Positions 11,267-64,000 of a stretch of DNA of 64,000 nucleotides are shown piece after piece. The position numbers were made by a program, and so were the translations under genes. Each line of letters opens with the position of its first letter. Within the stretch, counting starts at the first letter, position 1. The DNA lies in assembly GCF_027596085.1 (NCBI RefSeq), contig NC_072455.1:4903959-4967958 (forward strand), given 5' to 3'. The notes below the pieces were generated by a model. It saw nothing but the letters and a program-made list of their open reading frames with translations, was not told where the DNA came from and did no database searches. Origin of the DNA: Anoplopoma fimbria (lineage: Eukaryota; Chordata; Actinopteri; Perciformes; Anoplopomatidae).

Positions 11267-11359
11267 GTTACTTGAACTCTGCTGGACTACCCTTTTGAAG
11301 CAGCACCAAAGAGAAAAAACAAAATTTTCATCTTCCAACTGAAATCTAAGCTAACCATC

Positions 11360-13429
11360 ATGGAGTCAGATGGGGACAATATTATGTTAATGCAGAATTT
11401 ACTTTCAGAGTATGTGCAACGAAATCCAACGTCCACCAACACGCAACTGTTCTCTTTTTTGGCGCTGCTGAACGCGTACGTTCCTGATTCCTACCTCCTG
11501 ATGTCTGAGTGTCAACAGATCCTTGGACCACCCGATCCCATCCACGGAGGCCCCCCCTTTGAAGAAAGAATGGAGCCTTTTCTCATCCTTATCAAGAAAT
11601 CCAGTACAAACCCTGAACACATTTGTATGGTTCAACCATCTTTTGCACAGTGTGCTGTGAAGCAACTAGCTGCCTTAAGGATTTCCAGGAGTGCCACAGT
11701 GATGAACTTCATGTTCTTACTTTGTGGAGATCAGCCCCAACCACATATACTCCAGTTCATCAAAGATTTGCTGACAAAGAGAAAATCTGGAAAAAGGGGT
11801 AAAGAGATGTTCTCAAGGTTGATTGAAGATATACGTGAGGAAGAGAATTTCTACAACGCTGTGTCCGTCTTGAAAACTGCATCAAATAAATTGACACAAT
11901 ACCCCATTTACCCCCAAACCCTTTCCCGTCTCTATTACATCAGAAGAGGCATCATTGACTATACAAAAGCCGAAGAATGGGCAAAGAAAGCAATTGCAAG
12001 AGCTCCAAACAACTCTTATGTGGCTGACACTCTCGGGCAGGTTTACAAGAATCGTTTGATGAGGGAAGCCTGGCAACTGGGGGATATCTTACACATGGCA
12101 GAAGAAGCTTTCAAAGCCTTCAAAGATGTGGAGAAGAACGCTGACGGAGAAGAGGGCCTGGAAATGAGGGACATGGCTGGTACTATAAGCATTTCAGATT
12201 CCTTTAACAACAGAGGCCTTTTTGGCTTCATTCAAGTGGCAAAGATAGCCTTTGATAAACTCAAAGCAGCAAGATCTAATCCTTCACAGGAACACAGGAG
12301 GTTCATCCAAAACTTAAAAACAGAAGTTAAAGCTAAGTTTGACTTTTTCGAACGGTACCTTACCTACTCCAAACAAAACATGACATCCACAGAGCCACGT
12401 TACTTCTGGAAGGACGTTGTACTTTGTTACGAAATGTACACAGCAAAAACAGCGGCTGAATCCATAAGCTTCCCAGGCCTTCTAGATCGTCTGAATCATG
12501 GCCTTTTCACGTCAAAGGGAAGATTTGCAGGTTTTGAGGAGGCAGAGCAAAGCGTGTCGGATTTAGAGGCCATCCAAGATGATTTGAAAACAAACTACGA
12601 GGCCAATCCTGACAATGTCCAGGCAGCTGAGAGCTACATCCTCTCCAACATCATCTTGAGCAACAAGATGCATAACTCTCCTGAGCTCACCTCAGAGAAT
12701 GAACTCAAAGCAATAATACACCGATTCTTGGACACAGATGTGGGGTGTAGAAGCCCAGAGTTTTACCTTGTGGCTCTGCTGTTGTTTTGGCCTCAAGTGG
12801 TGCAAGATGAGGTGCAAGATGAGGACGATGAAGAAGTGGAACAACAGGCCACAGAGGATGAGGGGTCAGAAGACGAAACCTTGGAGGTCGAGGACAGCGA
12901 TGAGGAACAAGAAACAAGCGGAGAGCCTGAACAACTATCCCTTGACCTCATGTTTGAGCCTGACCTGCAACAGTTTGTCACATTCATGGAGAAAGCGTTT
13001 GAGAGATCTGATGCCAAGTACCTTCGAGGCCGTTACCTTTTGCCTCTGTTTTTTCTGGGGAAGAGGTCTGGACTGAGCAGATGGATCCACAAATCAAGGC
13101 TGGATGCAATCGTGGAAAAAGAGGTGGATGCTGAGCTAGCTGGTGAACAGGATGAAAGAACTGGGGAGAAATTGAGGCGGATCAACAAAAAATGGATCAA
13201 TGGGGATGTGTGGCGAATCCCAGAAATTGAAGACCTGCTTCTACCAGTCCGTGTCGAGCTTGGCTATTCTCCCACGATGCCACGGGAACATGAAGAGGAG
13301 GAAGTGATTGTTTGTGCTGGAGGGAAGAAAATAAAGGTTACAAGAGAGGTTGAATCTGATTCAGTGCTGAGCCCGATGCGTTTCTATCTTGGCTTCACCA
13401 TTAAGGGTCCTTTCGTCTTCAACGTTTAA
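11360..13429 (+). CDS. samd9l-like: SAMD9L-like protein lacking the NTPase, copy A (689 aa)
   Basis: This open frame aligns to the part of SAMD9/SAMD9L after the P-loop domain. Shared motifs with the minus-strand SAMD9L-like gene include LLN-YVP-SYLL, RMEPF, SRLI-D, ADTLGQ-KN, RGQFG/RGLFGFIQV, FFERYLTYSK, RYL-PLFF and a C-terminal OB-fold-like end (VIVCAGGKKIKVT, RFYLGFTIKGP). It corresponds to about residue 280 onward of that protein, so SAM, AlbA, SIR2-like and P-loop regions are absent. An acidic run (about residues 480-525, many E/D) lies between the helical repeats and the last domain. The start ATG follows a likely 5' UTR exon border (cttcag/gttac at 11266/11267) and is shared with copy C. 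AATAAA is at 13861. Known family members are interferon-linked antiviral and growth-control proteins; a role here as a regulator or decoy is only inference. Confidence 0.85.
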   Translation: MESDGDNIMLMQNLLSEYVQRNPTSTNTQLFSFLALLNAYVPDSYLLMSECQQILGPPDPIHGGPPFEERMEPFLILIKKSSTNPEHICMVQPSFAQCAVKQLAALRISRSATVMNFMFLLCGDQPQPHILQFIKDLLTKRKSGKRGKEMFSRLIEDIREEENFYNAVSVLKTASNKLTQYPIYPQTLSRLYYIRRGIIDYTKAEEWAKKAIARAPNNSYVADTLGQVYKNRLMREAWQLGDILHMAEEAFKAFKDVEKNADGEEGLEMRDMAGTISISDSFNNRGLFGFIQVAKIAFDKLKAARSNPSQEHRRFIQNLKTEVKAKFDFFERYLTYSKQNMTSTEPRYFWKDVVLCYEMYTAKTAAESISFPGLLDRLNHGLFTSKGRFAGFEEAEQSVSDLEAIQDDLKTNYEANPDNVQAAESYILSNIILSNKMHNSPELTSENELKAIIHRFLDTDVGCRSPEFYLVALLLFWPQVVQDEVQDEDDEEVEQQATEDEGSEDETLEVEDSDEEQETSGEPEQLSLDLMFEPDLQQFVTFMEKAFERSDAKYLRGRYLLPLFFLGKRSGLSRWIHKSRLDAIVEKEVDAELAGEQDERTGEKLRRINKKWINGDVWRIPEIEDLLLPVRVELGYSPTMPREHEEEEVIVCAGGKKIKVTREVESDSVLSPMRFYLGFTIKGPFVFNV

Positions 13430-18735: not shown

Positions 18736-19749
18736 CATTCAAATAAAGTGCAGGACTAGAGAGTTGAGACAGATGAGCTGATTTCTTTTTTTTTTATTTT
18801 TTTTTTTATTTTATTTGATAAATTAATAAATGTATACTTCATTAATGAATATAAAAAATAAATACACTGTAATAGATTTAATTGTTTAATATTATAAAGG
18901 CCTATTTCATGGGTTTACGACTGTATTAAATTGCCAATCATTCAATAACAATTGTTATACTATTGTTCCGGGTGTTTAAAGGGGATATTCATTTTGTTTA
19001 AAAAGCTTTTATACTGCTTAGTAATGCTAAATATAGGGATTTAAAGTGGCAAATGGTTCTCATTCACATATCCAGTGGGGACGGACTAACATTAGCATTT
19101 ATTTAAAGTCTGGTTTCCGGCCACCTGACAAATGTAAGTCCAATATTTCCTCTCTCTTTTAAAGGGCTCTTTGATTATGCATAACTGTAAGCCTAATATA
19201 TTTTACAAAAGTGTGAGTTATATTAAAAACTCAACCACGGTAGAGTTGTCATGAAAAAGGAAATTAGCCATAAAAAGTTAAAGGCTCCTTTGTCTACCAG
19301 CAAGTTGCATACCCTGTTTGTTGTTTGGTACTGTGCAGGTAGCGTACAGTAGAGTTTTTCATTTAAAAAAAGGCTGAGATCATAAGAGCAAGCCTTCATA
19401 TATTGGTTATCTTCATTGTTTGCAAGATTATGTTATTATTTCGTTATGACAGCTGTTTGGTGGAGTTTCATTTTGACTGGAAGGCTAAACACACAAAGTA
19501 ATGCAGGCTAATAAAGTAGAAAGACATTTACAGGAAAGCATAACATTTATTATAATCAATGCAATAACTGAGCTGAAGGGCTTCACTTTCATTTCTGTGT
19601 AAACGCAACTCGAAAGTTGGCATTGTCTTGAATGTGTAGGTATTGTCTTAATGACCAAGGAGGAGTGAAACTAAACACAATGAGACACACGTCAGATTCA
19701 AGGTTCAAGAATGTGCAGAATGCAGAAGGCGTGCCTTAGAGCTGTTTAT
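18736..19749 (+). other. Partial copy of the SAMD9L-like upstream spacer
   Basis: This is homologous to 8810-10160, with an internal deletion of the region equivalent to about 9433-9765. It is non-coding. Confidence 0.75.
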
Positions 19750-20377
19750 ATATTTTTGGCGCTGCTGAATGCGTACGTTCCTGATTCCTACCTCCTGATG
19801 TCTGAGTGTCAACAGATCCTTGGACCACCCGATCCCATCCACGAAGGCCCCCACTTTGAAGAAAGAATGGAGCCTTTTACCGTCCTTATCAAGAAATCCA
19901 GTACAAACCCTGAACACGTTTGTATGGTTCACCCAATTTTTGCACAGTGTGCTGTGAAGGTACTAGCTGCCTTAGGGATTTCCAGGAGTGCCACAGTGAA
20001 GAACTTCATGTTCTCACTTTGTGGAGATCAGCCCCAACCACATATACTCCAGTTCATCAAAGATTTGCTGACAAAGAGAGAATTGGGAGAAAAGGGTAAA
20101 GAGAAGTTCTCAAGGTTGATTGAAGATATAGGTGAGGAAGGGAATTTCTACAACGCTGTGTCCGTCTTGAAAACTGCATCAAATAAATTGACACAATACC
20201 CCATTTACCCCCAAACCCTTTCCCGTCTCTATTACATCAGAAGAGGCATCATTGACTATACAAAAGCCGAAGAATGGGCAAAGAAAGCAATTGCAAGAGC
20301 TCCAAACAACTCTTATGTGGCTGACACTCTCGGGCAGGTTTACAAGAATCGTTTGATGAGGGAAGTCTGGCAACTGG
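19750..20377 (+). pseudogene. samd9l-like: Truncated SAMD9L-like pseudogene, copy B
   Basis: The left junction fuses the spacer (gccttagagctgtttata) to the codons for FLALLNAYVPD, losing the start codon and first about 32 codons. The frame then runs through RMEPF, SRLIED and ADTLGQVYKN. It breaks at about 20377, where a short tandem of ggcacacaatt leads into the proline-rich minisatellite. The retained part covers roughly 210 residues. Coding similarity is closest to copy A; it cannot make a full protein. Confidence 0.85.
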
Positions 20378-20397
20378 CACATAATTGGCACACATAA

Positions 20398-22355: not shown

Positions 22356-22448
22356 GTTACTTGAACTCTGCTGGACTACCCTTTTGAAGCATCACCAAAG
22401 AGAAAAAACTAAATTTTCATCTTCCAACTGAATTCTAAGCTAACCATC

Positions 22449-24512
22449 ATGGAGTCAGATGGGGACAATATTATGTTAGTGCAGAATTTACTTTCAGAGT
22501 ATGTGAAACAAAATCCAACGTCCACCAACACGCAACTGTTCTCTTTTTTGGCGCTGCTGAACGCGTACGTTCCTGATTCCTACCTCCTGATGTCTGAGTG
22601 TCAACAGATCCTTGGACCACCCGATCCCATCCACGGAGGCCCCCCCTTTGAAGAAAGAATGGAGCCTTTTACATTGTTTGTGGGCATATCCAGTACAAAC
22701 CCTGAACACATTTGTATCATTGACCCAATTTCTGCACAGTGTGCTGTGAAGCGACTAGCTGCCTTAGGGATTTCCAGGAGTGCCACAGTGAAGAACTTCA
22801 TGTTCTCACTTTGTGGAGATCAGCCCCAACCACATATACTCCAGTTCATCAAAGATTTGCTGACAAAGAGAGAATTTGGAGAAAAGGGTAAAGAGAAGTT
22901 CTCAAGGTTGATTGAAGATATAGGTGAGGAAGAGAATTTCTACAACGCTGTGTCCATCTTGACAGCTGCATCAAATAAATTTAAACAAAACCACATATAC
23001 CCCCAAACCCTTTCCCGTCTCATTTACATCAGAAGAGGCATCATTGACTATACAAAAGCTGAAGAATGGGCAAAGAAAGCAATTGCAAGAGCTCCAAACA
23101 ACTCTTATGTGGCTGACACTCTCGGGCAGGTTTACAAGAATCGTTTGATAAGGGAAGCCAGACAACTGGAGGATATCTTACACATGGCAGAAGAAGCTTT
23201 CAAAGCCTTCAAAGATGTGGAGATGAAAGCTGACGGAGAAGAGGGCCTGGAAATGAGGGACATGGCTGGTACTATAAGCATTTCAGATTCCTTTAACAAC
23301 AGAGGCCTTTTTGGCTTCATTCAAGTGGCAAAGATATCCTTTGATAAACTCAAAGCAGTAAGATCTAATCCTTCACAGGAACACGGGAGGTTCATCCAAA
23401 ACTTAGTAATGGAAGTTGAAGCTAAGTTTGACTTTTTCGAACGGTACCTTACCTACTCCAAGCTTGACATGACATCCACAGAGCCACATTACTTCTGGAA
23501 GAACGTTGTACTTTGTTACGAAATGTACACAGCAAAAACAGCGGCTGAATCCATAAGCTTCCCAGGCCTTCTAGATCGTCTGAATCATGGCCTTTTCACA
23601 TCAAAGGGAAGATTTGCAGGTTTTGAGGAGGCAGAGCAAAGTGTGTCGGATTTAGAGGCCATCCAAGATGATTTGAAAACAAACTACGAGGCCAATCGTG
23701 ACAATGTCCAAGCAGCCGAGAGCTACATCCTCTCCAACATCATCTTGAGCAACAAGATGCATAACTCTCCTGAGCTCACCTCAGAGAATGAACTCAAAGC
23801 AATAATACACCGATTCTTGGACACAGATGTGGGGTGTAGAAGCCCAGAGTTTTACCTTGTGGCTCTGCTGTTGTTTTGGCCTCAAGTGGTGCAAGATGAG
23901 GTGCAAGATGAGGACGATGAAGAAGTGGAACAACAGGCCACAGAGGATGAGGGGTCAGAAGACGAAACCTTGGAGGTTGAGGACAGCGATGAGGAACAAG
24001 AAACAAGCGGAGAGCCTGAACAACTATCCCTTGACCTCATGTTTGAGCCTGACCTGCAACAGTTTGTCACATTCATGGAGAAAGCGTTTGAGAGATCTGA
24101 TGCCAAGTACCTTCGAGGCCGTTACCTTTTGCCTCTGTTTTTTCTGGGGAAGAGGTCTGTACTGAGCAGATGGATCCACAAATCAAGGCTGGATGCAATC
24201 GTGGAAAAAGAGGTGGATGCTGAGCTAGCTCGTGAACAGGATGAAAGAACTGGGGAGAAATTGAGCCGGATCAACGAAAAATGGATCAATGGGGATGTGT
24301 GGCGAATCCCAGAAATTGAAGACCTGCTTCTACCAGTCTGGGTTGAGCTAGACTGGGAACATGAAGAGGATGAAGTGATTGTTTGTGCTGGAGGGAAGAA
24401 AATAAAGGTTACAACAGAGGTTGTATCTTATTCAGCGCTGAGTCAAATGCGTTTCTATCTTGGCTTCACCATTAAGGGTCCTTTCGTCTCCACAGTGGAA
24501 CGTCCTCACTGA
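22449..24512 (+). CDS. samd9l-like: SAMD9L-like protein lacking the NTPase, copy C (687 aa)
   Basis: A near-identical paralogue of the 11360-13429 gene with the same start context and the same absence of SAM, AlbA, SIR2-like and P-loop regions. The acidic run (about residues 480-525) is conserved almost unchanged. Differences cluster: residues after RMEPF (TLFVGI versus LILIKK), the segment after SVSIL/SVSVL (TAASNKFKQNHIYP versus KTASNKLTQYPIYP), and the C-terminus, where a short segment is missing and the end reads FVSTVERPH. AATAAA is at 24969. Function unknown; intact frame and recent duplication suggest it may be expressed, which is inference. Confidence 0.85.
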   Translation: MESDGDNIMLVQNLLSEYVKQNPTSTNTQLFSFLALLNAYVPDSYLLMSECQQILGPPDPIHGGPPFEERMEPFTLFVGISSTNPEHICIIDPISAQCAVKRLAALGISRSATVKNFMFSLCGDQPQPHILQFIKDLLTKREFGEKGKEKFSRLIEDIGEEENFYNAVSILTAASNKFKQNHIYPQTLSRLIYIRRGIIDYTKAEEWAKKAIARAPNNSYVADTLGQVYKNRLIREARQLEDILHMAEEAFKAFKDVEMKADGEEGLEMRDMAGTISISDSFNNRGLFGFIQVAKISFDKLKAVRSNPSQEHGRFIQNLVMEVEAKFDFFERYLTYSKLDMTSTEPHYFWKNVVLCYEMYTAKTAAESISFPGLLDRLNHGLFTSKGRFAGFEEAEQSVSDLEAIQDDLKTNYEANRDNVQAAESYILSNIILSNKMHNSPELTSENELKAIIHRFLDTDVGCRSPEFYLVALLLFWPQVVQDEVQDEDDEEVEQQATEDEGSEDETLEVEDSDEEQETSGEPEQLSLDLMFEPDLQQFVTFMEKAFERSDAKYLRGRYLLPLFFLGKRSVLSRWIHKSRLDAIVEKEVDAELAREQDERTGEKLSRINEKWINGDVWRIPEIEDLLLPVWVELDWEHEEDEVIVCAGGKKIKVTTEVVSYSALSQMRFYLGFTIKGPFVSTVERPH

Positions 24513-29290: not shown

Positions 29291-29444
29291 AGAAGGTGGA
29301 AATTCTACATCAGGACGCTTGCAGCCACTTTTGCTTCTCCCCCCTCCACACTGTGCGTCCTCTCCATCTATCTCCAATTACCACTTCTTCAGCATCTTTT
29401 AAATCTACCACTCACCGTTCGGACCTCACAGTGTGAATACTGAC

Positions 29445-34360
<4,916 letters not shown>

Positions 34361-36286: not shown

Positions 36287-40541
<4,255 letters not shown>

Positions 40542-41497
40542 GACCTGTGACATTCTCAAGTCTGATCTTTGCGACTTCCAAAACTGTATGTGACACGGAG
40601 GATGCTCCTTGTTTTCCTGTTTGATTTTCTTTATTTATTCCCTGGCATTTCTTAACTGAATGCCGTCAAAAGTGATCATTTGCATAAAAAAAAACTGTAC
40701 ACATTCATATTTGACATTCTTTTGTGACCTCTGGAAAATAAAACCCTGCCTATTTTCTTTCCAAATCAAGTCATTGTCATTTTTAATGCTTCAATTCTAT
40801 TACTTAAGAATAAATGTTGTGCTGTTCCACACAAATATGTTAGATTCATCTGGAGAAAAGGAAGTGAATCTAAATATTTGCGTATTCTCTAGAATTTTGA
40901 CACATCAGGACATACGTTTCACAAGAAAAAATATGTATGAAACAGATACAAAATAATCCACCTAATTATATTCAAATATAAACTTATTTTTTGATTTCAT
41001 TTTTTTTTATTGTGTAATTTTTATCAGAAAACTTGCCGGATCTTCCTTCCTTCAGATTTGCATTTATTGAGAATTTTTTTTGGCCACTTATAGCTTAAAT
41101 ATATAAAAAAGCTTAAATATGTATGTATATTTTTTTCTTTTTTACATAAATAAATCACTTTAAAGCATTTGGTCATTAAAGAACTGTGACTAAGTAATGT
41201 ACAAAGCAGGGCCTTTTACAAAAAAAAAAAAATGTCAGTGCCTTCTAGTGGACTGAAGGTGACTGCTTATATTTCAAAATGTCTTCAAACATATCTTTGC
41301 CATATCTTGACTGCAATTCTTTGTCATTTCTCGGCTTGCATATACACAGGTATTGATACATCTGCAATAAGCAACTATCAGCTGATTTACTGGTCCTGCT
41401 CTTTTAGTCAAATTTGCTCTACTTCCTTCCTATAAGCTCATAAAGAAAACATTAAAGCTCTTTGGCTCTATCAAAGTCCAAAGATAGTTTTGCTCCT
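40542..41497 (+). other. mrpl48 3' UTR and flanking DNA
   Basis: Contains the AATAAA at 40737. The remainder is AT-rich with no supported gene. Confidence 0.5.
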
Positions 41498-41618
41498 TCA
41501 GAGAGATCCCTTAAGCTCAGAAACAAGAGGCGCAAGATACTCCATCACTTGCAGGATTTCATTCTTTGCATCCTCTGCCAGTGACAAACCTGAGAATGTC
41601 CCTCATTTGGTCTTTTTC
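41498..41618 (-). pseudogene. Decayed CARD exon (C-terminal half)
   Basis: On the minus strand, about 41615-41580 encodes KDQMRDILRFVTG. After a frame change, 41578-41498 encodes AKNEILQVMEYLAPLVSEL followed by KGSL and a stop. Both pieces align in order with the end of the CARD exon at 44199-44467 (DQMSGIIQCLTS, then KDELYKIL, RPLIAELEGSE, stop). The layout, strand and stop position match, so this is a relic of a second copy of that exon. No other exons of such a gene were found nearby. Confidence 0.6.
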
Positions 41619-41629
41619 TACATTCTATA

Positions 41630-42780
41630 GCATAATACTATTTCTACTATGTTTTCTTCATGACTTTTTTCGACACACTATACTATGATTTTTGGGGACT
41701 TTTTCAACATATTTAACTCGGACTATTTCTGACTTTTTTCCGACATTCTATACTATGAGTTTTTTGGCATACTAAACTATGATTTATTTTGACATACTAA
41801 AGTATCAACTTTTATGACTTTTGACATACTATGCTGGAACTATTTCGAGACATTATTCAACATTAATTTACCAGGACCTTTTTTTGACTTTTATTGACAT
41901 AATTAACTAAGATTTTTTAATTATGTTTTTTTTGATATTCTTTTTTCAACATACTGTGAATTTTTTTGAAATACTATACTATGATTTTTTTATTTTTATT
42001 TCAACATACTTTTTTATGACTATTTCTACATACAATACTTTTACTTTTTTCAACATACTATGCTATGATTTTTTTGACTTTTTTCAACATAATATAGTAT
42101 TACTTTTTCATGACTTTTTTCAACATATTATGCTGTCACTTTTTTATTTTTAGATACCATATATGACATACTGAAATATAACCTTTTAATGATTTTTTAT
42201 GACTTTACTATTATACTTTTTATTTTTTCAACATTCTATATGTTTTATGACTTTTTTTGCTATACTATACTATGACTTTCTTTATAAATGCTTTACTCCG
42301 ACGTTTTTATGAAATAATTTTACTATGACTTTTCTTTAAACTATTATAGTATGTCTTTTTATTAAGTACATTTTTTCAACATGTTTTACTCTAACTTCAT
42401 GACTTTTTAAAATGTACTATACTATACCTTTTTAAGACTTTTTTCAACATGCTATATTATAACGTTTTCGCCATACTATAATAAGACTTTTTTTCACATA
42501 CAATACTGTGACTTTTTTATGACCTTTTTGACATGCTGTACTTTGACCTTTTTTAAGGACTTTTCGCACCATTCTATACTATAATTTCTTGGGACTTTTT
42601 TAATATACTATTCTCTGACTTTTTTTGACAAACCACACAATTACTTTTTTTTGACATACTATACTATAACTGTTTCTACATACTATACTTTGACTTATTT
42701 TGACATTTGAGACATTTTTGAATTAGTATTTCAACATACTACTCAGTTTTTTCTCAAAATGCTCTACTACTATGTTTATT
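41630..42780. repeat. Degenerate AT-rich tandem array
   Basis: About 1.1 kb made of imperfect repeats of catactatactatgac followed by a T-rich run and ttcaa, with a spacing of roughly 25-35 bases. Composition is strand-skewed (T-rich on +). No coding content. Confidence 0.8.
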
Positions 42781-44198
42781 TATATATTGCATAATTTTCA
42801 ACTGAATTATTTGGTATTTTAATTATATTTCAAGCTAAAGATATAAACAATCTCACTCGTATTTTCTTTCTTTTGTGTTGACAATGACACAGGATAAGAA
42901 GAATTCACCGGTTTTATATTCAAGCCTTTTTGTGTTTGCATCAATGTGCCTTGATAAATCTATGAAACATTATTCTGGTTTAAACATTTAGCTGAAGGGA
43001 CACTGATGTTTATTGAATAAACAAAAACAAACAAACCAGCCTTCAATCTTTTCATGAATAATACAAATATAACATTTTCAAAGTCTTTGGTCAAGCACTT
43101 AAGCAAAGCATCAAAAGTAATGGGTTATTGCCGGAGAAAAACTTCAAATCGGCCAGATGTCTTCAGGTTTCCTACTGAACTGCTTGATTACTCTCAAGTT
43201 AATAATTCAAACAAGTCAAGTGGAGTTCAATATGATATAGGTTTACTGCAAAATAAAACTGATTACATGTAAATCATGCTTGTCCATGGAGCAACTGGAT
43301 TCAGAGTGAAAAAATACACACATTCATAAAATTCAATACCTCCTTCTTTTGTGGAGCTTGCTGGGAAGAACATATCCCCGCAAGTGGGGGGAATGTATGC
43401 ATTATTGGATATGCATTATCACTGAATATTTATACACATTCTTCCTTACATCTTTACATCTTTGGACACCCTAGATGGAGCGCCGCACAGTTTCTGGCTA
43501 GATGAAGAAGACAAATCTACTCTCAAAAGTTTTGTAACAGTCACAGACAATTTAAACAACATTTAACAGAATATAAAAAGGCACCTATGTGTTTCCTTTA
43601 CAATTACATTTTGTTTGCTTGCACCCATATCGCTACTTTCCACTGAGAGTAAATCTTCTTTTGAGTGTTGCTTCATATTTTTTTATAAATTCATAAATGT
43701 TTAAATAGAAAATATGCAAATGATCAAGGTTTTAGGAGTTTAATTTAAGGTCTAAGGTTGCAGATCACAACCGAGTGAAGCTTCTCCAGTGTGCCAAGCG
43801 TGAAGGAGAACTAAAGTGTCTGACGCAAATGTCCCAATCTAGAGCCAGAGTTTAGTTTGTCCATTATGGGCTACTGTAGAAACATTGCAGCTAACCCACT
43901 CCCTTTCTAGATATAAATGTCCCATTCTAAGGTAACCAAAACACAACAATTCTCAATTTCAGTTGATTATACACTAAAGAAAACATACTTATTATTGTTA
44001 CATTCCATTGCTCCAATAGATCCCCCTAAAACCTACACAGTGTTCATTTAATTTAGTCACTCTTTTCATCCAAACTACAAGTGCTTTTCTGTTGGACAAG
44101 TAAATCAAGGATAACATTGTGTCGAGTGACCGTTGTCTGAAATGCCCACTTATTGTCCATACCTACAGCATTCTTATTTTACTTTTATGTGTCGTTCT
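42781..44198. other. Non-coding DNA 3' of the SAMD9L-CARD gene
   Basis: AT-rich; it includes the presumptive 3' UTR of the minus-strand gene. A 72-codon plus-strand frame at 43054 has no recognisable domain. Confidence 0.45.
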
Positions 44199-47100
44199 TT
44201 ACTCAGATCCCTCAAGCTCAGCTATGAGAGGCCTCATACTCTTCATCCTTTTAAGGATTTTATAGAGTTCATCTTTGCCTCTTGTGCCAACTGAAGTCAA
44301 ACATTGAATAATGCCACTCATCTGGTCTTGTGTGTTGTTTAAAGAGCTCAAAGTCTCATAGTTCTCTTGTGAGATCCATTTTCCATCCTTGAGCTTATCC
44401 AGGATGGTTCTTGTATCGCTCACTCTGTTTATCAGATCCGTCTGATGGCGATCCACAAAGTAGTGCCCTGAAGCAGGCAAATAAAACCAAAGTTAACAAA
44501 CAGTGAATACTATAAGTTGGACATTCATATGTTTAAATGAAAACCCCAGGAACAGAAAAATAAAAGCAGAATAAACATTTTCGAGACCTCTATGTGATGT
44601 CATTTTATGATTTCTCAATCCTGATTTGATTTTTGCATATTACTTACCTCCAGTGGTATCTTCTGGTTCTGAGCTATCCATCCCTGATATTTCTTCTGCT
44701 ACACAGTGCGATGGAATGGGATTTCATTAGTGGTGCATACAGAAATGAAAAATAACAATTAAACAGCAATGTTTCTCTCCAAAAACAATGTACAGCTATT
44801 CTGGATTATCTACAGACTTTTGGAACATTTTCTGACATTCTAATAAAAATATACACACAACTATTTATACATTTACAGATTCAACAGTACTGTAAAAAAA
44901 AATACACAATAGACTAAAGCCTGAAACTTATTTGGGAGATTCTTTTAGATGTTTAATTATAGCTTAAGTAATAGTTAGTTACCCTTCTTATCCTTGGCTG
45001 CAGGTTTTGTCTGGATGGCAAAGGCTACAGGACCTCTGATGTTAAATCCCAGGTAAAAGGAAACTTGTTCGAGGTCTCCAGAGGCTGTTTTGTTGGTTTG
45101 CCTCCACCTCGATCTTCATGTCACCAAGAGTTGCATAGACTTTGTAGTTTTGTACAACCCCTTCAACTTTGACAAGGCGTGCTTGGACCTTGGGATCTCG
45201 GAAAATCTTCTCTTTGTTCCAGTTGTTGCTCCAATCTTGTTTTGTTTCCTCTTTTCCCTCGGTAAACAAATTTTCGAGGACCTTTCTGTGAACAATTCTG
45301 TTCAGATCTTCACCATTTCCAATGAAAAACAGAGGGCGGAGGTACCTTGATCGAAAGTGTATCTCATATGCAACTTCATATGAGCGGTGCATCCGCCGAA
45401 TTAATTCATTGAGGTCAAGGACACATCTGGCTTCACTGTCTGTAGGCCAGCACAGAAGGAGGGCTAACATGTGGAGCTCAGGTGAATCAATGGGGATCAG
45501 AGGCATTTTCTGCTTGAAAGCAGCTAAATACTTGCAATCAGAAGGTAAAACTGCTCCCATATTTCTTAACATGATATGAGCGAGGATGTAGTTGACCAGA
45601 GCTGTGACGGTATCTTTCTGAAGAAAGATTTCTTCCCACCATGTGGTTATTTCTTTCAGGTCTGATTCAGTGCATTCTCTGTCAAGACATGAGAGCACTC
45701 CAGCGGAGGTGTCCGCTAGGTTTTGTTTGAGCTTCTGGATGAGATCAGCGCCTTTTTGTTTGAAATCTTTGGATGGGGAGTTTCCGACAAAATTCCTGTA
45801 GCACTCTGAGGTGTCTTTGGAAATGTATGCAGGATCATTTTCAAAGTCAGGCTTTGAATAAGTCAGGTATTTATCAAAGAATGCACATTTTCTCTCAATC
45901 TCATCTCTGAGGCTATTTATTAGATCGTTAAAGCTGAAGAGTTTGTTGTCTCCAAGTGATTCCAAGGACAACTTCTTTGTGAGAACTTCCCTCCAAGCAC
46001 TGTTCTGACTGACAAGTTGGTCATACACAAGGTTGCAAACTTGCACATAACCAAACTGCCCTCTGATGTTAAAAACATTCGAGACTTTGGTATTGCCATC
46101 TCCTCTCATCTCAGTCCCACATTCATTTTCAGCAAGTCTTTCTTCATCTTTGAAAGCTTCAATGGCCTTTGAGGCCAGTTGCAAAATTTCTCTTGGTTCG
46201 GCAGTATGCTTTTTGATCTTGAAAAGATTCTTCAAATGGTTCTTATGGATCTGGCCTAGTGTATCAGCAACAAATGAATTTTTGGGCTCTCTTAGCTTGG
46301 CTTCCTTTGCCCACCTTTCAGCCTGAAGGTAGTATTTTAGTTCTATGTAATAAAAACGAGCAAGTGCTTGTGGAAAAAATGGATCTTGATCAAACTTATT
46401 TGACGCCTCCTTTAGAACCGATGCACTCTTTTTTTTGCCCTCAAACTTTTGAAGATCTCGAATCAGCCTAGAATACCTTTCTTGGTCCTCTCTGGTCTCT
46501 GTGTCATTGACTGCGTCTAGATTTTCTTTTGGTTTTGTTCCTCTTTTGGTTAGCATGTCTTTGACGAAACCAACCAAAAACGGAGGAAACTCTTCTCTGC
46601 AAAAACAAGTCAACAAGTTTGTTGCTGTGTCACTTCTGGTCACACCATACTTAGCCATCAATTCAGTACAACACTGTGCTATCATAGGGTGAGCCATGCA
46701 GACTTTTTTTTCAGATCTTTCATCTTGTTGGAATGTGATGATGAGATGGCTAAAGGGCTCCATTCGGTCCTCCAGTGAAAAGTCTCCGTGGATGTAGTCG
46801 TCATGTTTGAAGAAGTCCAGGCACTGAGACTCCAGGAGATATGAGCCTGGTACATAGACATTCAGCAGGGATAAGAAGGCGGCAAGCTGGTTCTTCTGTA
46901 GTCTCTTGGCTGTTTTGGTGGTTTCAAATACAGAACATGCCTCTTGGATGTAAGCCTGAGAGAAATTAGTTTGTATTATGTTAAAGCCGTGGAATTGCTT
47001 GTATCTATCCCTGTACCTTGTGCTCAGTTCTTTCTTTTTCTCATCAAATCTTTGCTTCTCTTCTTCAGAAATTACTTTTTGTAGGACGACATGATCACTC

Positions 47101-47711
47101 GCTAGAGCTGCATCCTTTCTTACACACTTGAGTAAAATCGCCACAGGCATATAGGTGTGGACATGTATATTCTGCTCAGCAATCTTCATCTTAATTTTGT
47201 TTGGCAGACTTTCCAAATCCTTCTCATCATTCACCAACAGCAGCACAGTGTTGTGTCGACTGCCTGCTGTGAAAAGCTGGACCACCTCCTCTGCAACCTT
47301 TGTCATGTCTGAGGTTGGGCCTGTTAAAACGGCGGTCCTGAAGGTTTTCCTCAAGTCCCACAACACCTTCATGGCCAGAGTGGATCCCCCGCATCCCGGC
47401 TGGTGGAACAGTTTAACAGTTGATATTCCTGAGAGTTTTTTCTTTTGGTGAATTTTTTTCACAAGCATGTCGTATCCATCTCGTTTGATGAAGGGAGTTC
47501 CAGTGCCATTTGACTCTCTCTGTTCACTAATGTGAAAGTTTAACCATTTGGGTGGGGCCCCTCTGTAAAAGTCTTCCTCTGTCTGATCAAGGAGTTCTGG
47601 AGGGAAAGACTCTCCTTCGAACTGTTTTGCATCGAGAACATCTAACAGTGAGAGGGAATGATTGATTTCTAATCTTCCACTAGCAGTGGACAGAGCTGGT
47701 CCACTTGCCAT
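44199..47711 (-). CDS. samd9l-like: SAMD9L-like NTPase with predicted C-terminal CARD; one apparent frameshift
   Basis: The main exon (47711 down to 44983) opens 889 codons to a stop at 45042. A SAMD9-type linker (FYRGAPPKWLNFHISE, about residues 48-63) precedes a P-loop region: HQPGCGGSTLAMKVLWDLRK (103-122), with Gly in place of the usual Lys, and a Walker B-like VLLLVND (155-161). Helical repeats (about 280-760) and an OB-fold-like end follow. SAM, AlbA and SIR2-like regions are absent. Near 45085-45100 one extra base moves the frame. In the other frame, translation continues through the canonical end (SGDLEQVSFYLGF, NIRGPVAFAI) to a donor at 44983/44982. Exon 44698-44648 (51 nt) and exon 44467-44199 then follow in phase. 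The last encodes a CARD (GHYFVDRHQTDLINRV to ELEGSE, stop) close to the CARD of fish ASC and NLRP proteins. The frameshift may be an error or a real lesion. The fusion is inferred from phase and spacing. Confidence 0.75.
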
Positions 47712-47718
47712 CTCGGAC

Positions 47719-47728
47719 TTTCAGTTTC
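47719..47728 (-). promoter_or_regulatory. ISRE-like motif next to the SAMD9L-CARD start codon
   Basis: On the minus strand the sequence reads GAAACTGAAA, matching the interferon response core GAAANNGAAA. It lies 8-17 bases before the ATG, probably inside the 5' UTR after an acceptor (cccattaag/gaacagg), so it may be transcribed. Motif seen; function inferred. Confidence 0.35.
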
Positions 47729-47884
47729 CTGTTCCTTAATGGGAAATGAGAAATGAGAAAAAATAAAAAGAATAGAAAAGAAAAGTTTTTATTCGGAACC
47801 TCAGTTTATATCATTGACATAATGCAACCCTAATCCTCACAACACACACGTGTGTTGTATATATACTATCTTTCTATGTATATA

Positions 47885-47974
<90 letters not shown>
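47885..47974. repeat. (ATCT)n microsatellite
   Basis: A pure ATCT tract upstream of the SAMD9L-CARD coding exon, probably in its 5' intron. Confidence 0.95.
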
Positions 47975-47975
<1 letters not shown>

Positions 47976-48059
47976 AAAATAGTATAAAGTAGCCACAGTA
48001 AGTAAAACAATAGTAACCTCTCTGACTGTGCATGCTGTCTTAAGTTACATATCATGTGT

Positions 48060-48062
<3 letters not shown>

Positions 48063-48112
<50 letters not shown>
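48063..48112. repeat. (TA)n microsatellite
   Basis: A pure TA tract of about 25 units, followed by a palindromic AT stretch (tgacaatataatatga near 48118). Confidence 0.95.
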
Positions 48113-48115
<3 letters not shown>

Positions 48116-48460
48116 GTTGACAATATAATATGATATATTATATTGTCAACTAGAAAATTTTGCAAGAAATTTTGACTGTGTGGCTGCTACTGCCCGAAGA
48201 CGTTGCACATATTAACAGTTCTGAGACAGCTGTATCAATGGGGTTCATTTAAGGTTAGTTTGGGGTTAATTTGAGGTACATTTGAAAAAGAAACGTGAGT
48301 TCAATCGCAGAGATATTATTATCAACAGAGAGCCTTATTGCTACACAGCCACACAGAATTATTATTGTTAACATTACAATAGCACTCATGTCTAGTCTAA
48401 TTGAAACTTCAACATGTTTGCAGAATTTAAAATGTTCTTACCTTTTTACCTGATGATGCA

Positions 48461-48560
48461 GAAGTCTTGTGAACATGTAATGCAGTACACTGTGAGCAGT
48501 AACTATGTACTGAAACCTGAACGGTGTTGGAGGTACATATAGCCACATGCCACACCCAAA
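48461..48560 (-). other. Possible 5' untranslated exon of the SAMD9L-CARD gene
   Basis: On the minus strand a donor (catcatcag/gtaaaaagg) lies at about 48451. It could splice to the acceptor before the ATG at 47711. The 5' end is not defined. Weak, based on one splice motif. Confidence 0.25.
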
Positions 48561-48611
48561 ATGGGTGATTACAGGAAATGATGTGAGGCTGTGAATGCCA
48601 GATAAAGTAAT

Positions 48612-49145
48612 TCTTTGTAAGTTGTGATCAAACTGTTTGAAGGGCATTTAAGGTCACATTTGCTACCTTCTTGAACAGAAGCCAAATAAAAAAGTTGAAT
48701 GAGTGAAATATTGTAGATTTGGCATTGTGGATGGCAAATGGGGGTAATAAGATGTCTTTTGGTATTGCTGTTTTATTTTAGTTATTTGTTGTGAGTATCG
48801 TTTTATTGAAAATGCTTACAAGGATTTCCAGTAAAGGGTGGGGTGAGGTAATTTGATCTTTAAAATGCCATTGACAGAAGATCATGCTATCATTTATCTC
48901 TGTCTTAGTCATAGCAACTTAATCCTCACAGCTGAAAGAAAAGAAACAATTTATAATAAAATGAAACAATTTTTATAATGCACTTTCAGTTTCATTTGCT
49001 TTACTCTTCAAGAGGAAACATAACAATGCATTCCTTCATTATCAGTTCATTCCTATGGTTGTTTAAACCTCTTTGTTGGATTAAATCTCTGTGGTTGACT
49101 TGTTCAGATTGACGTATGAACATTGACAGTTGTACTGGATATATA
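48612..49145. repeat. Duplicated block, copy 1 (with ISRE segment)
   Basis: Starts attctttgtaagttgtgatc and ends near tactggatatataa. It matches 50956-51370 almost base for base, except that about 120 bases (about 48903-49009), including the second ISRE, are absent from the other copy. Confidence 0.85.
48984..48993 (-). promoter_or_regulatory. ISRE-like motif upstream of the SAMD9L-CARD gene
   Basis: On the minus strand the context is AAATGAAACTGAAAGTGC, an excellent match to the ISRE consensus bound by ISGF3/IRF factors. It is about 1.27 kb upstream of the start codon and about 0.4-0.5 kb upstream of the possible 5' exon. SAMD9L genes are known to be interferon-inducible, which fits. Confidence 0.5.
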
Positions 49146-49317
49146 AACCGTTGCTGTGCAGCTTTTAGTTACAATGTTTGAAGAATAAATCAGATCAGTT
49201 ACTTAAGTCTAAGTACTATGACCACACTGTAAAAATACTCCATTATAAAATAAAAGTATCTAATTATAATCAGGAAATTTGACTTAAGACGTGAAAAGTA
49301 GTAGTTTAAACCCAAAC

Positions 49318-50751
49318 GTGTAGTGAGGGTGAACTGGGAACGTCTGGCTGAGGATCCTGTCCGCAAGGTCTTCAACTCCCACCTCCGGAACAATTTCTCG
49401 TGCATCCCGGGGGAGGCTGGGGACATGGAATCCGAGTGGGCCATGTTCAAATCCTCCATTGTGGAAGCTGCTGCTAGGAGTTGTGGTCGGAAGGCGATCG
49501 GTGCCTGTCGTGGCGGCAATCCAAGAACCCGCTGGTGGACACCAGCGGTGAAGGAGGCCGTCAAGCTGAAGAAGGAGGCCTTTCGGGCTTGGTTGGCCGA
49601 GGGGTCTCCTGAATCAGCAGGCAGGTACTGGTTGGCCAGAAGGGCTGCAGCTGCGGCAGTTGCTGAGGCAAAAACCCGGGTGTGGGAGGAGTTCGGCGAG
49701 GCCATGGAGAAGGACTTTCGAATGGCCTCAAGGAAGTTCTGGCAAACCGTGAGACGACTCAGAAAGGGGAAACAGGGCTTTTCTCAGGCTGTTCTCAGCA
49801 GGGGGGGAGAACTGCAGACCCGGACTGGGGATATTGTCGAGCGGTGGAAAGAACACTTTGAGGAACTCCTGAACCCGACCAACACGTCCTCTGTGGAAGA
49901 GGCAGAGTCTGAAGACTCAGGGGAAGACTCGTCCATATGCCTGGCGGAGGTCGTTGAGGTAGTTAAAAAGCTCTTCAGCGGCAAAGCGCCAGGAGTGGAT
50001 GAGATTCGACCGGAGATGCTAAAGGCTCTGGACATTGTTGGGCTGTCTTGGTTGACACGTCTCTTCACTGTCGCGTGGAAGTCGGGTACAGTGCCTGTGG
50101 GATGGCAGACCGGGGTGGTGGTTCCCATTTTCAAAAGGGGGACCGGAGAGTGTGCTCCAATTATAGGGGTATCACACTGCTCAGCCTCCCCGGGAAAGTT
50201 TACTCCAGGGTGCTGGAAAGGAGGCTCCGTCCGATTGTCGAACCTCAGATTCAGGAGGAGCAATGCGGATTCCGTCCTGGACGTGGAACAGCGGACCAAC
50301 TCTTTACCCTTGCAGGTCTGTTGGAGGGTGCATGGGAGTTTGCTCATCCAGTCTACATGTGTTTTGTGGACTTGGAGAAGGCCTTCGACCGTGTCCCTCG
50401 GGGAGTCCTGTGGGGGGTACTGCGGGAATATGGGGTACCTGGTTCGTTACTACGAGCCATTCGGTCTTTGTATGACCAAAGTGAGAGCTGTGTCCGGATA
50501 CTCGGCACAAAGTCGAGCTTGTTCCCAGTGCGTGTTGGCCTCCGCCAGGGCTGCCCATTGTCACCAATCCTGTTTGTGATTTTCATGGACAGGATTTCAA
50601 GGCGCAGCCGGGGGAGGAGAGTTTCCGGTTTGGGGACCTCAGAATCGCATCCCTGCTTTTTGCAGATGATGTGGTTCTGTTGGCTTCTTCAGAACGTGAT
50701 CTTCAGCACGCACTGGGGCGGTTCACAGCTGAGTGTGAAGAGGTCGGGATG
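49318..50751 (+). mobile_element. 5'-truncated LINE (non-LTR retrotransposon), reverse transcriptase region
   Basis: One frame encodes a LINE linker and RT start (KAPGVDEIRPEMLKAL, WQTGVVVPIF). A one-base loss in an A-run near 50132 then shifts the frame. RT continues in the next frame (SNYRGITLLSLPGKVYSRVL, CGFRPGRGT, DLEKAFDRVPR, GLRQGCPLSPILF). A second shift near 50640 precedes LLFADDVVLLAS, the catalytic box. There is no endonuclease and the 3' end runs into the assembly gap. It is a dead copy of a common fish family of the L2/CR1/Rex type; the clade is not resolved. Confidence 0.85.
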
Positions 50752-50851
50752 NNNNNNNNNNNNNNNNNNNNNNNNNNNNNNNNNNNNNNNNNNNNNNNNN
50801 NNNNNNNNNNNNNNNNNNNNNNNNNNNNNNNNNNNNNNNNNNNNNNNNNNN
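50752..50851. other. Assembly gap (100 N)
   Basis: Exactly 100 unknown bases, a placeholder size. The gap sits at the 3' side of the LINE, and the right flank repeats sequence found elsewhere, so local order is uncertain. Confidence 0.98.
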
Positions 50852-50857
50852 ATCTGA

Positions 50858-60316: not shown

Positions 60317-63300
60317 TCACACCTTTTTAGGGGGAGGGGCCAACTTGATGATCTCATCTTCAGAGGGCTGGCGGATGATATCTTTTAGGAGGGAGGGGTT
60401 GGAAAAAGAGGGTGGAGAGAGAGAGAATAAGAGAGAAATCTTAAGAAAATATGCTAAAAAGTCATTTTTTTTTTTACATGTGGACCAAAGCTGTAGAATA
60501 GTCTGCCCATAAATATCACACGTGCAATTTAAAGTTACAATCAATAAGAACTTCATCTTATCAACACCCATTTTCGATGCCATTTAAGGTTGGCATCGTT
60601 TTAGGAACAGCCATTCATTGCAATTACATTCTGTAAATACCTGTCTATATAGTTAATCTATTTGTTAAACCCCTACAAAAGCATGAGGGATTCACTGGAA
60701 ACAATGCATGCACGTAATCCATCTTAACTTTGTTTTGAATCTCATCCATATCAATCTCACTGTATACACTTTACTCTTCAAACACAGTTTCAGAGCTGTA
60801 TTAAGCAGGTTTCCTACAGCTGCTGCTTCACACTAACTGCTGAACTGCTGAAAAATGGTGGGGCTTTTATTGTGAAGCAGCAAGAGGAAACACATAATTG
60901 ATATTATACTGGCTGCTAATAATAAAACATCGGTCAATATTTCTAATCAGCGCATCAGTTTTAAATATTGCATCGACTTATGTAACACAAAGGAGCAACT
61001 TCAGTGAGCTGTTGCTCATTTTATAGAATAATACATAAATAATTGTTTTCCTATCCATATTACTCTAATTTGTTTACTTTGAATGTGTTTTATGCAGATT
61101 TATTTTAGTCACTTTGAGTCGCAATTCAACATGTTGCTGCATTTAAAAGTTATTTGACTATTTCTCTAATTCAAAGGAAATACCTTACCTTTAGACAAAA
61201 TATTGAAACATTGAAGCTCTGTGCTTATTATTTAAAGTACATTAAAAAACACTCACTTTGCAATTAAACATATCATGTTAAATATCACAAGCAGGGCTGG
61301 GTATTTAACCTCAGTGTTTTGTGTATTGAAAACTGAAAAGTACAGAAAGTCTGATGGGAAAATGCATTCAGTCTTTTTCTCTGTCTGGGCTAATCCTGTA
61401 TTTTCAATTTTTTTCAAGTTTTATTAATAGAGCATCTTTCATGCAAGATGCACAAAGTACTCTCCGGAGTGGGGATGATGAAACACAATGACAGAACGAA
61501 AGCATCAGAAGGGGATAAATAAAGCAGCAAATATTAATATGACTTAGTCAGTGTTAATAACAACATTTATATAAAACTAGTAAAAGCCAAAGAATGAAAT
61601 GGTTCTTTTCTTTTCATTTGATAGCAGAGGAAATTATGTTTTTTATTTGGCCAGTGCACCTGTGTTTTTATGTCGTCTTAACTCAATATGGATGGAAACT
61701 AAATTTCCCCTGTGAACTGAACGGCAATAAAAGTTGTAGGAAAGAAATACACTTAATAATGGCAGCAAAGAGCGGGTTGGGAGAGGAGGAGAAAGAACAT
61801 TTTATCCTCCCTTAAAGCAAGTCTTATTGGTTATCTCAATCTTTATTTACACCAGAAAGTAAAAAAGAAATACAAAATTAAACCAGAATACGTGTAAGAT
61901 AAAGTCAAGATTGATGATTTGAAATCACAATTCATCAAAAAAGAAAAAAGGTCAAAAAGAGGAAAATAAGAGAGACGATATATATCGTTAGTACATTCTT
62001 TATATCATTTTTTTAATAACTCTAATTTATCATTTAATAAAACTTTTTTTAGAATCTGAATGTGATGTTAAGGATATTTAAATTCTGGGCTGGTCGACTA
62101 TTCTTTACAGCATCAATCCAGACCATGTTTATGCATTTTTTTTTTATATTTACATATTTGATCTGATTATTATAAAAAAAATTATATAATTGAGATAGTT
62201 TGAACTTTTTCGTGAACATTAAAGACCCTCAAATAGAGTCCCCTTTTTAATTAATTATGATAATCTTAAATGCAGAACACTGCTATGAGAAATAGGAAAA
62301 TTACCTGCGAAATTGTATTTGTTTGTATGTTTTGTCTTTGTTTTTCAGTGTACTTAATTATTAGTTATTCTTTTTGAGTAGTATATTCATATCATATTAA
62401 TGTCATTTTATTAAGGAAAACTAAACTAAAATATTCTGTCCTAAATATTCTATATTTTCATTTGATCAAGGTTTAATAAGTATGATAGAAAATGTGTTTG
62501 TGCTTTTATTTTATCGTGCAACAGTAAAATTATCCAGTTAACTCACAAGAACAAAAGAGACCATAAACTCATGGTTACAATGTTTACTTAGGTAATAAAA
62601 TAAGTGAGAATAAGGGTCATTTCCCCATAGACTTCTATACCACCAGACTTTTGTTTGCAACCAGAGGAGTCGCCTCCTGCTGGCTAGTAGAGAGAATGCA
62701 TCGGCTTCACTTTTTATAACTGGAGGTTGCTGCCTTATTGGTTTCGGCAGACCAGGAAGCCAATCAGAGTAACTTCCTTCAAGTCAAAGATAAGAGAACT
62801 ATCCCCAAAGTGCTAATATTATTCTGCTATTGTAGACAATTGATACGTAAATATAACCCCACATCTACGTGTTCTGGAGATAAAGCTCATAGGGTGTGTC
62901 ACCTTTGTATTTCTTGGCTGAGGGGATGCGTGTGAGCTTGGTGTCGATCTCGTCATCCTCGGAGATCTTGAGCACAGTGGTGCGGTACTCGATCACCCTC
63001 GTCAGCAGGTCCGGTCGCCGCGAAATCTCGAAGATGTGCTCGATGTACGACAGATTATCTGCACGGGAAAAGGTTGTCATGAGTGTTTATTAGTTTATAT
63101 CAGAAACGCCAGACAAACTCCGATCTTTTTGGTAGATGAAATACAAGCCTGATTATCTTGATTGATGATATGAAATGCATGAAAATCTGGGAGCTCAACA
63201 CTCGTTTGTGTCTGCGTTTCTTACCTTGGGCCAGCTTGTCGTTCTTCTCCAGGTAGCTGAACCACTCCTTGGAGGAGGTGATGTTGTTGCTCTGGTCCTC

Positions 63301-63396
63301 GGGGATGTCCTCCTTGCAGGCCGACTTGAGCTGCTCCAAGTCTTCGTTGGTGATGTTTTCAGACAGGTCGCTGAGCAGAGAGCTGTACTCCGCCAT
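60317..63396 (-). CDS. pea15: PEA-15, death-effector-domain adaptor (130 aa)
   Basis: Predicted coding exons on the minus strand: 63396-63225, 63058-62903, 60381-60317 (172 + 156 + 65 = 393 nt), phase 1 at both introns; length equals the human protein. A death effector domain covers about residues 1-80 ([37 protein letters not shown]). The C-terminal tail keeps the two regulatory serines at the human positions: S104 in RIPSAKKYK (PKC site) and S116 in RQPSEDE (CaMKII/Akt site). PEA-15 binds ERK1/2 in the cytoplasm and FADD/caspase-8, so it links MAPK signalling to death receptor control. The start is set by an acceptor (ctctccag/accATGg). The second intron is about 2.5 kb. No lesion is seen. 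Confidence 0.97.
60382..62902 (-). other. Large pea15 intron
   Basis: AT-rich, with no supported exon or RNA. Flanked by good splice sites (tacaaag/gtgaca and cctaaaag/atatc on the minus strand). Confidence 0.6.
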
Positions 63397-64000
63397 GGTC
63401 TGGAGAGGAGACAGAGAGAGCGGGAAACAGTTAGGCACGCCGAATAAGACGATGAACAGGAAATAAACAGAGGTCCCAAAATATCTAAATGTTGTGTAAT
63501 GTGCAGACAGCCCACCTATTTCCCAGACGCCAGTGTGGAAAACAGTTAGGAAATCTTAGCTAATGACAAAAGCAGACTGTCAGAGTGGGATGGAAAAGCA
63601 GGAAAACACTGAGAACAGATCATATCCGACTGGTCAATCGTCTCTCTCTCTTTGTTTCTGAAAGGGGAAACTGACTGAAGAGACAGGAAGTGACAAAACG
63701 GGACGAGAAACACTGTCTTGCACCTTAATTAAGAACGTCCCAAAGGGGGGGGATCTATGCACTCAGTGAAGGACTTTAGTCAGCATTCGGCTCTTGCTTT
63801 CCATCACAAGGTTTATTACCCTTCAACTTATCTTTGAAATAAAAGAGGGTAATATTTTCCTTCTTGTCAACAAGTCTCACAAAAAGATGTATTGACTGTG
63901 TATCCAAAGCATGAAAGAGGTTATTCCTTTGTGCCATAGAGCTTCATCAGTTGCCCAAATAAATAAATAAATAAATAAATAAATTGAAAACACATCAATG
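63397..64000 (-). other. pea15 5' intron or upstream region
   Basis: The acceptor immediately before the ATG means at least one 5' untranslated exon lies further upstream, possibly outside the window. An (AAAT)n tract occupies 63957-63983. Confidence 0.5.

Follow-up and report, generated by a model that had tools for sequence, protein, structure and literature searches.

The window analysed here, 64,000 nucleotides of the Anoplopoma fimbria genome (GCF_027596085.1, contig NC_072455.1, positions 4,903,959 to 4,967,958 of the forward strand; its own numbering is used below), carries on its reverse strand a gene in which a SAMD9-type core is followed by a short linker exon and an exon for an NLRP1/ASC-type CARD, joined in phase 1, an order found in many fish gene models. 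We give a probability of roughly 0.6 to the reading that, in this branch of fish SAMD9 proteins, the SAM domain and the tRNase effector are missing and the C-terminal CARD is the likely effector, working like zebrafish Gbp4, as judged from sequence comparison and from analogy with that protein.

A SAMD9-type core joined to a CARD exon

The CARD exon (Table 1) scored 34 bits against PF00619 (cutoff 23.9; E=3.1e-8) and 152.8 bits against a hidden Markov model (HMM) of the family's tails that was built without it, two scores that rule out a chance match. In its fold model (predicted local distance difference test, pLDDT, 93.6) the six-helix death fold was present, in agreement with the initial annotation of this DNA, which had read a CARD exon ending in a stop here, preceded by a GT donor after the last strand of the core and by a 51-nucleotide linker exon with GT-AG borders; all of these elements were recovered. 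The nearest CARDs by sequence were those of NLRP1 (1.2e-7) and zebrafish ASC (9.9e-7), and by fold those of zebrafish GBP and ASC, the closest solved CARD fold being that of a zebrafish GBP. Such an NLRP1/ASC-like sequence and a modelled GBP/ASC-like fold would fit inflammasome signalling.

The open reading frame of the main exon (47720-45042) held 889 codons from an ATG at 47711, with frame 0 open over 47711-45045 and a stop at 45044-45042. Residues 43-863 of its product aligned with positions 523-1389 of 37ht, a SAMD9 chain of solved structure (E 2.4e-70; the chain is 1434 long and positions are chain numbers, the true residue number likely being higher), as an NTPase-TPR-OB core of the SAMD9 type. 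In this alignment, and in a Walker A motif with GG(S/T) (GCGGST within HQPGCGGST) like the GG signature described for the SAMD9 P-loop (PMC5445408), the gene resembled SAMD9 and SAMD9L. A Pfam search of the 889-residue frame found no family, NACHT included, and an Rfam search of 40000-50000 gave 0 matches. Frame 0 contained 0 stops against about 7.8 expected on the window branch without constraint (P about 4e-4), a rough expectation for which the branch length was taken from a FastTree tree. The fold model of a whole relative, P0004, was poor (pLDDT 50.9, and <50 in the linker at residues 902-929) and of use, if at all, only where it covers the OB and CARD parts; the comparison of the core accordingly rests on sequence alignment to the solved SAMD9.

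Read in the last-strand frame, both introns are in phase 1. Motifs at the joints matched those of relatives, with KTAEEISGMKRSEQITPKDTTGGQQFVD in Zoarces viviparus P0003 and AEEISGMDSSEPEDTTGG in the window linker, after which the CARD exon continues with HYFVD (the relatives' proteins, here and below, are gene models, not sequenced transcripts). Identity between the window and Zoarces was 80% for the CARD and 81% for the core, and relative to three zoarcoids 78-80% and 81%; by these sequence identities the CARD is slightly less well conserved than the core.

Table 1. Features of the SAMD9-type gene and its surroundings in window coordinates. Donor scores, here and in the text, are in bits from a donor matrix.
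Feature	Coordinates	Strand	Basis or remark
Main exon, SAMD9-type core (P-loop, middle helical part, OB end)	44983..47711	-	Open reading frame, tblastn and match to 37ht
Variant Walker A, HQPGCGGS, with SAMD9-type GG(T/S) replacing GK(T/S)	47382..47405	-	Read from sequence
Frame break (+1) of one base, as judged from relatives' proteins	45064..45071	-	tblastn with relatives' proteins
Intron 1, GT...AG, phase 1 in last-strand frame	44699..44982	-	Donor GT at 44982, score 2.67 bits
Linker exon, 51 nucleotides, phase 1 at both ends	44648..44698	-	Motifs common to relatives' linkers
Intron 2, GT...AG, phase 1	44468..44647	-	Donor GT at 44647, score 7.7; acceptor AG 44469-44468
CARD exon, stop TAA 44201-44199	44199..44467	-	Pfam PF00619
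Decayed second CARD, two pieces in two frames	41501..41624	-	Tail HMM, E 0.0024 and 0.0061
ISRE-like GAAACTGAAA, 7 bases from ATG	47719..47728	-	Suggestive only
Second ISRE-like GAAACTGAAA, 1.3 kb upstream of ATG	48984..48993	-	Suggestive only

No SAM or tRNase part found in the main exon

The match to 37ht begins at 523, well past the tRNase of SAMD9, which is described as the effector of mammalian SAMD9/9L (human SAMD9 residues 156-385; PMC13245274), and because the core matches SAMD9 only beyond this point, the window protein is not a full SAMD9L. In the main exon no N-terminal SAM domain was found by Pfam or by the 37ht alignment and no AlbA_2/tRNase-SA effector by the 37ht alignment, either of which might lie on a remote upstream exon; the models P0003 and P0004 start at the same methionine as the window ATG. 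In having no match to these parts, and in having a CARD exon downstream, the gene is unlike SAMD9 and SAMD9L. The SAMD9L-type NTPase with a C-terminal CARD proposed in the initial annotation was upheld at the level of gene structure and family, but neither as a full SAMD9L nor as an intact copy.

Elsewhere in the genome, a SAM-bearing SAMD9-type frame of 1577 residues (C11) was matched by Pfam SAM, and a frame of 1491 residues (C16) has a start that looks SAM-like by eye and has no Pfam match. No other SAMD9-family place, among the best candidates listed, coincided with any of the 30 best CARD candidates in the genome, a set from which a CARD below the cutoff could be absent. Within the window, three more SAMD9-like frames lie on the forward strand (11276-13429, 19684-20397 and 22413-24512); they are 31-41% identical to the core by tblastn, match it only from about residue 270 on, and have no CARD nearby, the CARD HMM having matched only the 44.2 and 41.5 kb places in the window.

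A frame break ahead of the tail

The main exon had been annotated as running in one frame through the canonical last strand, VSFYLGFNIRGPVAFAIQTKPAAKDKK, which proved incorrect: the strand (VSFYLGF...GPVAF) is present in the next frame, at 45067-44984, and not in frame 0, where the stop is met, and in relatives it forms part of a single protein. With P0003 as tblastn query, residues 1-890 matched 47711-45054 and residues 885-909 matched 45067-44993 in the other frame, a switch that implies one extra base near 45068; the gene models of eight relatives read through the site uninterrupted. The matching phase 1 of the initial annotation holds in the last-strand frame, and the window as written would make an 889-residue protein without the CARD. 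Two donors that might have rescued the frame were rejected: a phase-1 donor in frame 0 at 45064 scored -6.5 bits, and one at 45313 (1.19 bits) would take some 90 residues off the end of the open frame. A search of the assembly for a further copy of the junction stretch gave 1 match, the stretch itself.

The break in the window copy would reflect mis-sequencing, a broken allele or the onset of decay. Since the 889 codons are free of stops, the CARD exon is open and the GT-AG borders are intact, the break would be young or an error, and we lean, without proof, towards a sequencing error or a young allele. The same observations, together with the 78-80% identity of the CARD exon to the three zoarcoids and the roughly 7.8 stops that would be expected, weigh against a pseudogene in the making, in which a genuine break would have become fixed and ended production of the CARD, with the locus losing its tail much as the models hint for sticklebacks. 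We regard this account as somewhat unlikely, although the position of the break before the CARD, the decayed second CARD downstream and stickleback models of the same clade with CARD stumps or none are what it would lead one to expect.

Distribution of the tail among fish homologues

The architecture that had been annotated in one fish paralogue was recovered in others. Within the best 120 of 276 homologues, the window's own protein included (the set to which all counts out of 120 refer), 33 carried a C-terminal CARD by the tail HMM, of which 11 also had a FIIND and 22 did not; the count is partly circular, as the HMM was built from 30 of the listed tails. Precomputed PF00619 was present in 25/120. 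Three of the 22 models with core and CARD and no FIIND are partial (P0058, P0066 and P0116). At the level of models, these 22 make it unlikely that the CARD belongs to an unrelated gene. Among the carriers are ray-finned fishes such as Zoarces, Cebidichthys, Anarhichas, Sebastes, Perca, Sander, Epinephelus, Micropterus and Siniperca. A core with a C-terminal CARD is not unique to the window; it is common to many fishes and already in automatic annotation. The remaining models include some that run into an intron, isoforms ending ...GGK after the linker and stickleback stumps, and of the models without CARD or FIIND some are unspliced or truncated and some perhaps truly lack these domains.

Several observations, in addition to the frame of the window copy being broken before the CARD as sequenced, weigh against the CARD as effector. 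In 7/8 relatives the identity of the CARD was 1-8 points below that of the core (2 points above it in the other), and precomputed Pfam annotation shows no CARD in the nearest CARD carriers (P0003, P0004, P0005, P0007 and P0013), that of P0003 scoring 20.9 against the cutoff of 23.9; for this reason the CARD of the window's lineage is regarded as divergent, the window exon itself passing. Both CARD and FIIND are lacking from the models of 56/110 cores placed in a tree (below), the window's own included, and stickleback models of the same clade (P0032, P0034 and P0055) end in short stumps or earlier. P0014 and P0015 end ...GGK just past the linker, and the window could also make such a CARD-less form.

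This last point bears on the possibility that only a minor isoform includes the CARD exon, or that most transcripts terminate within the intron that follows the linker, with a CARD-less main product. P0014 and P0015, and P0017 with its end ...GGKKHAKIKLEK, are all named isoform X2, the window too reads TGGK-stop after the linker and the first donor is modest; the 22 models with core and CARD argue the other way, and we think this explanation unlikely. We also doubt that the CARD serves as a decoy or inhibitor, or binds another CARD partner (caspase-9, RIPK2 or MAVS) rather than ASC, since the NLRP1, zebrafish ASC and zebrafish GBP CARDs rank first or nearly so by sequence and fold.

Proposed mechanism and comparison with known systems

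With the CARD as effector, the core would be closed at rest and, on sensing a viral or stress cue, would open under the control of nucleotide; the opened core would then oligomerise and so cluster the CARDs, which may seed ASC and, via ASC, a caspase, as the Gbp4 precedent suggests. Nucleotide-controlled opening and oligomerisation follow the STAND model as described in PMC13245274, according to which it is not known exactly what triggers SAMD9/9L. Coupling of the window protein to ASC or a caspase is what we infer by analogy. Zebrafish Gbp4 is reported as an interferon-gamma-inducible GTPase with a C-terminal CARD that needs Asc (PMC4932187); the window gene is like it in encoding a predicted NTP-binding protein with a C-terminal CARD, whereas the GTPase of Gbp4 is of another family and Asc dependence is reported for Gbp4 alone. 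NLRP1 and CARD8 likewise have a C-terminal CARD, but no NACHT was found in the 889-residue frame and no FIIND in the window. If the reading of the CARD as effector is right, a natural fish SAMD9 in which a CARD replaces the tRNase would make the sensor part studiable by a speck readout, and an interferon-linked inflammasome sensor would be added outside the NLRs.

Fish and invertebrate SAMD9 proteins carrying CARD, Death, Pyrin and FIIND domains were described by Mekhedov 2017 (PMC5445408); the SAMD9-CARD/FIIND combination in fish has been known since then, and the window architecture is a variant of it. The gene shares with those fish proteins the pairing of the SAMD9 family with DEATH-fold domains; it departs from the text of that paper, in which the variation is N-terminal and the C-terminal order is not stated, although its figure or supplement may show the order. 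No description of a C-terminal CARD form of SAMD9 was found in the open-access literature searched (subscription papers and preprints lay outside the search), FIIND occurred together with SAMD9 in that literature only in PMC5445408, and the main text of a review of fish inflammasomes (PMC9978379) has 0 mentions of SAMD9.

A decayed second CARD and the history of the tail

Beyond the intact CARD exon, at a distance of 2.6 kb, lies the decayed second CARD. By tblastn its best match was P0120 (6.7e-5), the same search having given a chance match of 0.004 inside the core; in a simulated control 0/60 windows passed HMMER's filters, a weak control because these filters remove most chance matches. 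By sequence it appears nearest to CARDs that follow a FIIND in relatives, a placement that is only a lean because the CARD tree has weak support (4/29 inner branches starred; the partial P0058 and P0066 dropped) and the branch is long. A FIIND (ZU5-UPA) was not found in the window, including the stretch between CARD and relic, by HMM (E up to 1), and tblastn gave no convincing match.

In a midpoint-rooted FastTree tree of the cores of 110/120 listed homologues (10 short ones dropped), a clade of 29 rows comprised 11 with FIIND, 7 with FIIND and CARD, 11 with neither and 0 with CARD alone, and the other 81 rows comprised 45 with neither, 21 with CARD alone, 11 with FIIND and 4 with both. The midpoint root thus has FIIND-bearing rows to either side of it, a pattern suggestive of an old FIIND-CARD tail from which the tail with CARD alone was derived; we lean towards an ancestral FIIND-CARD tail, and only lean because the tree is a midpoint-rooted FastTree one. 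The Scortum model P0122 has the order OB end, CARD, FIIND, CARD, with intron-like stretches inside, and Plectropomus P0018, one of the 11 models with FIIND and CARD, has the core, a CARD and then the FIIND. The ancestral tail was probably CARD1-FIIND-CARD2, with only CARD1 surviving in the window.

When the FIIND domains were aligned (only matches spanning >230 model positions were kept, and several rows are near copies), the cleavage-site Ser was present in 24/31 SAMD9L-type rows (23 of them F-S) and absent from 7, and the catalytic-His column was His in 30/31. In P0042, S1074 and H1047 are 27 apart, the spacing given for S969 and H942 of rat NLRP1 (PMC8081665), and S1074 aligned with the residue that opens the NLRP1 chains 6x6a_G and 7crv_D, which by their length are C-terminal fragments. 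Given Ser and His at the NLRP1 spacing, most FIIND-bearing relatives could therefore self-cleave, and they are like NLRP1 and CARD8 both in these residues and in their FIIND-UPA-CARD order.

A FIIND-UPA-CARD tail was also seen on P0127 (Plectropomus, PKR-like, with dsRNA-binding and kinase domains), P0125 (Epinephelus moara, PARP14-RRM) and the NLRs P0124 and P0129, the CARDs of which are 69-75% identical to that of Siniperca SAMD9L; these are single models in which merging errors are possible.

A broader history can be put forward only tentatively, as one we hold to be rather less than evenly probable: the percomorph SAMD9 sensor would have been rewired by dropping the tRNase and gaining a CARD1-FIIND-CARD2 tail, and would signal via CARD1 or via an NLRP1-like self-cleaving FIIND-CARD2 according to the choice of terminal exon, some lineages, that of the window included, keeping CARD1 alone, with the FIIND-CARD cassette also present on NLRs and on PKR-like and PARP14-like proteins (single gene models). 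If true, the cassette would be a shared plug-in output of interferon-linked sensors.

Interferon-type sites and neighbouring sequences

GAAACTGAAA occurs just twice in the window, each time upstream of the SAMD9-like ATG and on its strand, an arrangement of weak significance given that at least 2 sites occurred in 9/100 shuffles; we take this sequence to resemble the consensus of the interferon-stimulated response element (ISRE). The looser GAAANNGAAA occurred at 12 sites in the window against 6.7 expected. By these sequences, interferon control of the window gene is only hinted at.

Some 15 kb from the SAMD9-like gene, at 63100-63555 on the reverse strand, lies a DED exon (Pfam DED), presumably of PEA15, which is identical over 58 consecutive letters to the DED stretch with which the Scortum SAMD9L model P0120 begins. 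This identity suggests either a conserved neighbourhood or a fused gene model, and models such as P0120 may wrongly merge neighbours. A reverse-transcriptase-like frame, identified by eye, was located 1.6 kb upstream of the SAMD9-like ATG on the forward strand (49305-50857) and ends in unread bases, and a transposase-like frame, also identified by eye, lies at 2763-3848 on the reverse strand. The forward strand further carries two C-type lectin domain frames (5279-5635 and 6004-6453) and a TRIM-like RING-finger frame with a weak B-box match (29403-30071).
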